From the NCBI RefSeq assembly GCF_030463535.1, contig NC_132893.1, positions 24,888,282 through 24,952,281 of the forward strand: a stretch of DNA of 64,000 nt. The letters run 5' to 3'. The position numbers were made by a program, and so were the translations under genes. The stretch is from Salminus brasiliensis. Taxonomy: Eukaryota > Chordata > Actinopteri > Characiformes > Bryconidae. Positions 41,001 through 44,000 of the stretch are shown here, in pieces. Numbering within the stretch: position 1 is the stretch's first letter; each line of letters begins with the position of its first letter. The notes under the pieces were generated by a model, which was given only the letters and a program-made list of their open reading frames with translations, was not told where the DNA came from and ran no database searches.

Positions 41001-44000
41001 ATGCTTGTAAAACCACATCTATGGGTTTTAATATTTAATAAAGACATTCAATGGCACCTTTAAAGCTATAGTTTTTATAAAAATGTGAACAGCAGTTAAA
41101 AGAAAGATTTACCAGTCCATTGCTGTAAAATTGTGATTAAATGTGTTATAGTTCTTCATGAAGAAGGAAATGTTTATAAAAAAAAATGTGGGACTTTATT
41201 GTGTATCTTTGTTTCCTGGCTAATCTAATCACACTTTTATGTAGTATGCGGGAAGGAGCTGATTGTGGCATTGTGTTAAAGTGCCATAAACTGTCTAAAC
41301 TATTGTTCCATTGCTTGTTCTGATGAAACCACGGCAGCGTCTGTCTGCTGTTTGGGTTTCATCACTGACTGTGAATGCACTTTGCCATAGGACAGTAAAT
41401 CCAATTTATCGCTCTTTGACTTGCATGGCATGGCCTGTTCCCCCTCTCCTTCATTTCTCATGCTAGCCTGATTGGCGCCATGTTCCCAATGCCCCGGGTC
41501 TTGTGGGCGATGGCAAACGACGGGCTGCTCTTCAAATACATGGCTGACATAAACCCGAAAACAAAAACCCCCTTACCTGCTACTCTAACTTCAGGCCTTA
41601 TGGCAGGTGAGAATTAATACTCTTAATACTATTAACATGTCTTGGCCTTGAGTTTGAGACTCAGCACAGCTATCCCACTGTGCTCGTGACTGTCACTGTG
41701 CATGCAGTACCTAGCCGTGTGTGGTTGGTGATGGGAGAGTTTGTTATTGATTCGGTTTCCTTTTTTTTTTGGTCAGAGAAAGCATGTTAAGCATGCTACG
41801 CACATTTAACACATTTTACTAATGGTAGACTTGATGTCTTCCATGGCAACCCAAGGGCTTATGTTTTTGTTTTGTTTTGTCTATTATGATGTACACCTCC
41901 CCACCCCACCCCACCTTTCCTCGTTCACTCTTCCCTCGCCCAGTCTTCTGGGTTCCATGTTCCCTCTCCCACGTATTATCTTTGCCATGGCCCGAGACGG
42001 TCTCCTCTTCTCTTTTCTGGCCCGTGTGAGTGAGAGGAAGACGCCCATCGTGTCCACGGTGTCTGCAGGGGTCATGTCCGGTAAGAACGGAGGCCGCCAG
42101 AGGGAAAGTGCAGAACCTGCTCTGGTGTGGTCATTGTGAAAGAACTAACAACCTTACAGTTTACACCAAAAACACAGAGGACCTTACTAGAACAGGAGCG
42201 GTTTCCTTTTAAAACCTGTTTTACCCTTCAGAGCATGAAGGAAACATGAAGCAGTCCCAGTAAAACTGAATCCAAGAGAGGACAAGTTGGTGTCTTTACC
42301 CGGATTTCTGTATTTGCTTGCTGTAGCATTGTCGATGCCATACAGTTGGGTTTGGGTGAAGTTTAATGAAATGTCTCATTCACATTCATATACACATTTT
42401 TTGTCCAAAAGCATCCAGACACGTCTTTGTGTTAGTAGATTCATCTACTTTAGTCTATGCTAATGGCTGATACAGGTGATGGTACACAGTCACATTATGA
42501 GCACAGAATATTATAAGCACCCCTGGTCTGGAATGAACCCAGCTCACTAGATCAGCTCCACTTCCCATATAGGAGCACTTTGTAGTTCTATAATCACAAA
42601 CTGTAGTCCATCTGTTTCTCTGCAGACATTGTTAGCTTCCGTTCACACTGTTGTTCAATGGTCAGGACCCCTCATGAGCACCACAGAGCAGGTAGTATTT
42701 GGGTGGTGGGTCATTCTCAGCACCCCAGTGACACTGACATGTCATGTGTGTTTCACTGCTGTGAGTGGATCAGTGGTCACTAGACACCCTACCTATTCGC
42801 TCCACCTTATAGATATATTATATAGTCAGAGACAGAAGCTTACCTGTTGCTGCAGAGTTTGTGTTGGTCATCCTCCAGCCCTTTATCAATAGTCACAGGA
42901 CACTGTTGGCTGGATATTTCTGGTTGGTAGACTATTCTCAGTCCAGCAGTGACACTACGGTGCTTAAACACTCCAGCAGCACTGCTGTGTCTGATCTCCT
43001 CGTAACAGCTCAAAACACACTAACACACAACCACCATGTCAGTGTCACGGCAGTGCTGAGAATGACCCACCACCCAAATAATACCTGCTTTGTGGTGGAC
43101 CTGTGGGGTTTTGACCATTGAAAAACACGGCGAATGAAGGTTAACAAAGTATGCAGTCTGTAATTATAGAACTACAAAGTGCTCAGATATGGCCAGTGGA
43201 GCTGATATATAAGGGGTTAGGTTAAATCCAAACCAGGGGTGATCATAATATTCTAATATGACTGTGTATAATTTCAGTACAGTAGTCAATATTCCCAATC
43301 TAGCATTGGCTAGAAGTGTAAGAATTGGACAGTATTGGGCTGTGAAGCAGGAGAACTCTCAGTAGAGTAGTTTTCTGAAATGATGGATCTCCATCCAACA
43401 CCTTTAGGATTTGCCAATTTTTTATGCTGCACGACAGTGGTTCCCAATCCTGATACTAGGTTCTAATGTGCTGTGCACATTTCAACATCTTTCCCGCTCA
43501 AGCACACCCACTTCAGCTTCAACAGGGCTTGTTAAATGAGCTAATGAGTTGAAATAGTTGAAGCAGGGAAAACACCAAATTATGCAGTGCAGGGGAACTC
43601 CAGAATCAGGGTTGGGTTCTTAAACCGATCCTCAGGGGCCCCTAGACTGTTAACATTTTTGCTCTATCTCTATGTTGCAAGATGTGTTGGAGCAAGTATC
43701 TGGACTGCCTGGAGGTCCCTGAGGACTGGTTCAAGAACCACTGATCTAAAGGATATGGCACTCTGGTCCAACATTCCCCAGCAAACAAGCACCAACATTC
43801 TTGGCTTAATACTTTACTAGAATAATAACACACCAGCCAAATGAACTAGTCTGAATAGAGAACATGTAGAACAGTGTAAAGGGGGGTGGAGCTTTCACAA
43901 CATGTGAAGGGGAGGGGTTGGGAAACAGTCTGGAGCCGTTTTTCAAGGCTCTAGAATGTTCTTGCCCATTCAGTCACACAGAGGTATGTCACACCAACCC

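Follow-up and report, generated by a model that had tools for sequence, protein, structure and literature searches.

In the cationic amino acid transporter CAT-2, encoded by SLC7A2, the difference in affinity between the forms CAT-2A and CAT-2B has been attributed to R369 and an added residue, N381, and in the same available sections of that paper CAT-2A is given as the liver and muscle form and the two forms are said to differ in trans-stimulation as well (PMC5803215). In the bacterial homologue GkApcT, R334, the equivalent of CAT-2A R369, bridges E15 of a lateral helix, and the substitution R334E leads to higher affinity, while M321S in the binding site admits arginine (PMC5803215, sections available). 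A similar arrangement is known from fish: exons 6a and 6b of zebrafish slc7a1a were likened to CAT-2A/CAT-2B by Ellingsen et al., 2020, who called the pair typical of teleost Slc7a1a and Slc7a1b, modelled the encoded segment as a cytoplasmic loop together with the latter half of TM8 before it and the first half of TM9 after it, and hedged its functional meaning with the words 'If confirmed functionally' (PMC7584565, in the parts accessible). The zebrafish slc7a1a cDNA cloned in that work is the form X2, and X1 is a prediction (PMC7584565, same parts). We equate X2 with the exon type called B below by its length, and as the X2 cDNA was cloned, the second exon would be transcribed in at least one fish. 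For fugu Slc7a1a the accessible text gives a single length (PMC7584565), so the pair may not persist in every teleost. One expression study matched besides this paper mentions, in the portion matched, no isoforms of these genes. The first-pass annotation of the DNA analysed here had remarked that such a choice is not known from mammalian SLC7A1; as a novelty the pair had been anticipated by the teleost description of 2020 (PMC7584565, accessible parts). The slc7a1 exon pair itself is thus already known in teleosts, and what we add is a comparison within one genome and two weak leads.

The locus compared with these systems lies in a stretch of 64,000 nt from Salminus brasiliensis (NC_132893.1, 24,888,282-24,952,281, forward strand; GCF_030463535.1), hereafter the window. 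We consider it highly likely that its exon pair is the teleost slc7a1 6a/6b, mutually exclusive, encoding a CAT-2-like affinity segment and of a single origin before the split of slc7a1 and slc7a2. An slc7a1-type gene is complete in the window, with coding sequence from 34671 to 49238 on the plus strand, and consists of ten common coding exons plus either exon A or exon B. The borders of the common exons were drawn from paralog similarity and AG-GT ends, not from transcripts. Coding exon 1, with the ATG at 34671, spans 34671-35040 and shares 94% identity over 114 residues with the slc7a1b-type locus on C11. Paralog similarity and assembly place exon 2 at 35233-35391, exon 3 at 35491-35662, exon 4 at 35959-36092, exon 8 at 45761-45966, exon 9 at 47265-47416, exon 10 at 47751-47859 and exon 11, with the stop codon, at 49048-49238. 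The common upstream exon 5 (39539-39761) was placed by assembly, and the common downstream exon 7 (44659-44761) by translation and assembly. Between these two lie exon 6A (41467-41606, 140 nt) and exon 6B (41944-42080, 137 nt), both supported by translation, alignment and assembly, and separated by an intron of 337 nt (41607-41943). Assembled in silico, the protein has 652 aa with exon A and 651 aa with exon B.

Coordinates and translation agree with the first-pass annotation that the two adjacent exons, 337 nt apart, share the same entry and exit phase, and its favourable view of the splice sites also holds, with AG before both exons, GTGAGA after A and GTAAGA after B, judged by eye against the consensus. 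The two exons are 49% identical, with an E value of ~9e-14 (in a small database), so their likeness is not due to chance. Exactly one of these homologous exons, in the same phase, is needed for the frame, as had been proposed: each alone gives a full protein, inclusion of both adds 277 nt and brings a stop at codon 428, and skipping of both brings a stop at codon 366. These premature stops lie 621 (both exons) and 530 (neither) coding nt upstream of the last coding junction, so that messages of either kind would be expected to be unstable. In the mechanism we propose, one exon only, A or B, would enter each working message, and messages with both or neither would be cleared by the frame shift seen in the sequence together with a presumed nonsense-mediated decay. 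The pair had further been described as alternative versions of a cytoplasmic segment; the alternative versions stand, and 'cytoplasmic' is too narrow, the exchanged piece probably being half of TM8, the cytoplasmic loop and half of TM9. All 10 of the 10 A and B exons read in the genome have AG-GT ends, and as judged from these terminal dinucleotides a U2/U12 clash is an unlikely cause of exclusion. Exclusion by too short an intron was set aside too: an intron of 337 nt is ample for splicing, and frame and regulation are therefore likelier than intron length to enforce the choice. Taken together, the exon pair is real and well formed and, as judged from its sequence, very probably functional.

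How widely the pair occurs was read from a search of the genome (1.07 Gb) with exon B as query, which gave at least 20 matches; nine regions cover all of those listed outside the window. Over the common exons, and with partial coverage throughout, identity to the window gene is 86% for the copy on C11, 78% for an slc7a2-type gene on C19, 72% and 68% for two slc7a3-type genes, 62% for a gene on C2 and 65% for a gene on C1, where coverage is least. Three further matched loci are slc7a4- or slc7a14-like. We take the names slc7a2-, slc7a3-, slc7a4- and slc7a14-type from similarity and recall, not from annotation, and provisionally call the window gene slc7a1a and the C11 copy slc7a1b. In the common-exon tree the C2 and C1 genes cluster with the slc7a2-type gene (support 83/92, not starred), and the order of the slc7a1, slc7a2 and slc7a3 splits is not settled. 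Among the matches listed, the pair occurs in three of seven CAT1-3-type loci, namely the window gene, the C11 copy and the slc7a2-type gene, and in all three the order is A then B and the lengths are 140/137. The donors are likewise bound to the class of exon, A exons being followed by GTGAG and B exons by GTAAG in 3/3 genes with a pair. The two slc7a3-type genes have a single exon of A type (140 nt), and the two slc7a2-like genes on C2 and C1 a single exon of B type (137 nt); a search of the interval from exon 5 to exon 7 in these four single-exon genes gave no second exon at E values up to 1. As an observation in its own right, these C2 and C1 genes (L010 and L013), in which only the arginine-bearing exon was found, resemble constitutive transporters of the low-affinity CAT-2A type.

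The exon tree (15 rows, 47 columns, no branch starred) does not gather the A types into a clean clade; outgroups of slc7a4 and slc7a14 type are interspersed with them. AU tests rejected a sister relationship of the two exons for the slc7a1a pair (p 0.0037) and for the slc7a2 pair (p 0.0039); neither a single A clade nor a single B clade was rejected (p 0.195 each). A birth of the pair within the window gene alone (AU p 0.0037) or within slc7a2 alone (AU p 0.0039) is thereby rejected. Grouping all four slc7a1 exons together was weakly disfavoured (p 0.071), as was grouping those of slc7a2 and its relatives (p 0.057), and with these values two later origins remain compatible with the data. The simplest and most likely reading is one origin before the slc7a1/slc7a2 split followed by later exon loss. 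The pair would thus have arisen once and then been trimmed, with A kept in the slc7a3-type genes and B kept, after loss of the other exon, in the two slc7a2-like genes. An old pair that persists in some members of a gene family, while others have only the one or only the other exon, makes for a testable case, in which the known residues should predict affinity.

Between the window gene and the C11 copy both alternative exons differ much less at nonsynonymous than at synonymous sites, though they diverge faster than exon 5: with silent sites near saturation, the proportions of nonsynonymous and synonymous differences are 0.193 vs 0.711 for exon A and 0.164 vs 0.631 for exon B, while exon 5 gives 0.036 vs 0.704. 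We compared residues in 11 A- and B-type sequences, ten from the genome and one from a solved CAT-1, and counted departures from otherwise invariant residues; there are three in exon A of the window gene, three in exon B of the C11 copy, one in slc7a2 A and none in the other eight. This reciprocal pattern is what would be seen if exon A of the window gene were losing its role, the window gene working mainly with B and its duplicate mainly with A, so that the pair became divided between the copies. Also in line with such a division, polarised changes fall 11:4 for A vs 2:8 for B when several outgroups are used (Fisher p 0.015), and the cloned zebrafish slc7a1a cDNA is X2 (PMC7584565, accessible parts). 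A general speed-up of the window gene is no explanation for its exon A, as the duplicate is the faster one in the common exons (13 vs 5, p 0.096, slc7a2 as outgroup); that same general speed, however, may account for the changes in exon B of the duplicate. When slc7a2 is the sole outgroup, the polarised changes are 6:4 vs 3:5 (p 0.64). Taken singly, the exons do not reach significance with any of the outgroup sets used (p at least 0.11), and the test was selected after the tree had been seen. The two exons moreover have intact frames and splice ends in either gene, with pN/pS well below 1. On this evidence we think it rather unlikely that the pair has been divided, and offer as a lead only that each of the two slc7a1 copies may have begun to favour a different exon of the pair. 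If they do divide the pair, they would be a clean case of duplicates sharing out a splicing choice, and would give a handle on which arginine-transport mode fish tissues need.

A different question is what the exchanged piece would do to transport. In all 11 sequences three columns split the classes: column 370 has E or N in A and R or H in B, column 383 has a residue in A and a gap in B, and column 385 has T or S in A and R in B. Exon B of the window gene combines R370 with the gap at column 383, the combination of the low-affinity form, and, having S357 as well, fits well as a clean CAT-2A type. In exon A, position 370 is N, against E in the five remaining A types, and position 357 is A, against S in the ten remaining sequences; of the glutamate and longer loop that together mark the high-affinity class only the longer loop is present, so that half of the combination is there, and its resemblance to this class would seem to lie in the loop alone. 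The X1 form of zebrafish Slc7a1a is also without E at the key position (PMC7584565, accessible parts). By the known determinants, the exon labelled 6B in the first-pass annotation would be the CAT-2A-like low-affinity type and 6A the CAT-1/CAT-2B type.

The residue that sets affinity in CAT-2 lies in the exchanged piece, with R370 and a shorter loop in B, like CAT-2A, and a longer loop without the arginine in A, like CAT-1 and CAT-2B. Read from the alignment, GkApcT E15 corresponds to D20 of the window protein and M321 to residue 357. R370 could, by this alignment, pair with the acidic D20 in the N-terminal lateral helix, the counterpart of E15 in GkApcT, and so steady TM8. We infer the kinetics of both isoforms from CAT-2 and the bacterial homologue, the literature consulted having brought up no kinetics of fish CAT-1 isoforms. 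Given N370 and A357 in exon A, two kinetic forms are not simply transferable from CAT-2 to this gene. The same two residues, which do not fit the high-affinity class, could mean that the exon choice is real but alters some other trait, for example trans-stimulation, regulation or membrane sorting, and trans-stimulation does also differ between CAT-2A and CAT-2B (PMC5803215, sections available). Against this speaks that the segment bears both CAT-2 affinity positions as well as the binding-site position equivalent to GkApcT M321, and we hold a purely non-affinity role to be improbable, somewhat more so than the division of the pair between the copies. Separately, we note that exon B of the C11 copy (L009, 4869-5006) has H for the expected R at columns 370 and 363, the latter being the arginine of the PxPR motif, and that its frame and splice ends are intact.

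Lastly, we looked at the sequences flanking the alternative exons. A TGCATG (41422-41427), which we take to be an Rbfox-type motif, precedes exon A of the window gene and is directly followed by a second GCATG (41428-41432). The distance from the start of TGCATG to exon A is 45 nt in the window gene, 36 nt in the C11 copy and 24 nt in the slc7a2-type gene. Within 60 nt of the acceptor it thus precedes exon A in 3/3 genes with a pair, as compared with 1/28 other acceptors, that of exon 7 in the C11 copy (Fisher p 0.0009), and the chance of 3/3 at the background rate is 4e-6 for 50-nt stretches. It was absent before the single A exon of the slc7a3-type genes (0/2). These values refer to one genome and to a motif chosen post hoc, GCATG having first caught the eye in the intron that separates the exons. 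A blind test for one shared hexamer was weak: among the 3276 triples that the 28 other acceptors form, 330 have some hexamer in common over the corresponding stretch, and 132 have in common one with at least two purines. The intron between A and B has three GCATG in the window gene (from 41700, 41782 and 41791) and none in either of the other two pair genes. After exon B, GCATG at 27, 78 and 110 nt is found in the slc7a2-type gene only, and the first copy in this intron comes at 152 nt in the window gene and 580 nt in the C11 copy.

Rbfox bound upstream of an exon represses that exon, and bound downstream promotes it. By this rule the motif copies upstream of exon A would favour B where Rbfox is active; in the window gene those downstream of exon A could in turn favour A, so that any effect might go in either direction. 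In the portions retrieved of one paper on the subject, no link between slc7a2 and rbfox in splicing was found. We regard the TGCATG upstream of exon A as a putative shared control element and as a weak lead. A fuller scheme, in which a pair older than the slc7a1/slc7a2 split sets affinity, Rbfox silences A through TGCATG, and after duplication slc7a1a turned to the low-affinity and slc7a1b to the high-affinity form, strikes us as a long shot.

The claim of a CAT-2A/CAT-2B-style pair in a CAT-1-type gene was borne out. Both isoforms score above the cut-off of 681.7 bits for the CAT permease family TIGR00906 (885.8 bits for A, 881.5 bits for B), and the best solved-structure match is CAT-1, for the B isoform and likewise for a fragment bearing A. 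The gene is closest to CAT-1 and stands apart from the slc7a2- and slc7a3-type genes, the solved CAT-1 being the only named vertebrate CAT compared. The window protein has E107 at the position equivalent to mouse CAT-1 E107 (alignment to 9uat), a residue whose role we take from PMC7584565 (accessible parts). It is very improbable that the window gene has been misnamed and is really slc7a2 with its well-known exon pair: its common exons are indeed 78% identical to the slc7a2-type gene, but this is a distinct, pair-bearing gene on C19 that clusters with two other loci (83/92, not starred), and identities within the genome (86% to the C11 copy), the match to solved CAT-1 and the common-exon tree all argue against it.

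Some further features of the window deserve mention. The intron between exon B and exon 7 contains a long imperfect inverted repeat (42505-43254) with arms of 139, 56 and 48 nt that are 77-88% complementary, the inner arms lying 259 nt apart; the repeat resembles a foldback or MITE-type element. Three segments (3128-3710, 9590-10214 and 54337-54782), with ORFs on both strands, match in translation non-exon DNA of other CAT loci and are probably copies of a dispersed transposon-derived repeat. Upstream of slc7a1, two ORFs at 21288-23522 on the plus strand match the GCFC domain PF07842, one at E 4.5e-10 and the other, under the cut-off, at E 0.0037, and this region therefore probably holds a GCFC-type gene. 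An ORF at 4116-4565 on the minus strand has a weak multicopper oxidase match (PF07732, 23 bits vs a cut-off of 21), and an ORF of 250 aa at 53320-54072 had no Pfam match. In the subset of 20 of the 52 window ORFs that was run against Pfam, with mtus2a as the neighbour sought, GCFC and multicopper oxidase were the only matches.

With respect to known systems, the mitf genes of fish are one point of comparison, in which, as Altschmied reportedly described in 2002, alternative exons were divided between two copies. Here, too, two gene copies have inherited alternative exons and there are signs of opposite ones weakening; unlike in mitf, each slc7a1 copy still has the two exons in an open, spliceable state, and the pattern is statistical and weak. 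The likeness to SLC7A2 is closer. The segment is homologous to that exchanged between CAT-2A and CAT-2B, the low-affinity form carries the arginine and one residue fewer, and the high-affinity form has no arginine, as in exon A of the window gene; the slc7a2-type gene of the same genome even has its pair in the same order and with the same lengths. The differences are that this is another gene, that the affinity switch was shown for CAT-2 and not for fish CAT-1, and that exon A has N, not E, at the key position. Closest of all are exons 6a/6b of teleost slc7a1a and slc7a1b, found in the same type of gene and at the same place, and with the same likeness to CAT-2A/CAT-2B (PMC7584565, accessible parts). 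Where X1 of zebrafish slc7a1a has D369, the window gene has N370 (aligned here from the residues listed in PMC7584565), and in both species the two forms are one residue apart, with 651/650 aa in zebrafish (PMC7584565, accessible parts) and 652/651 aa in Salminus.
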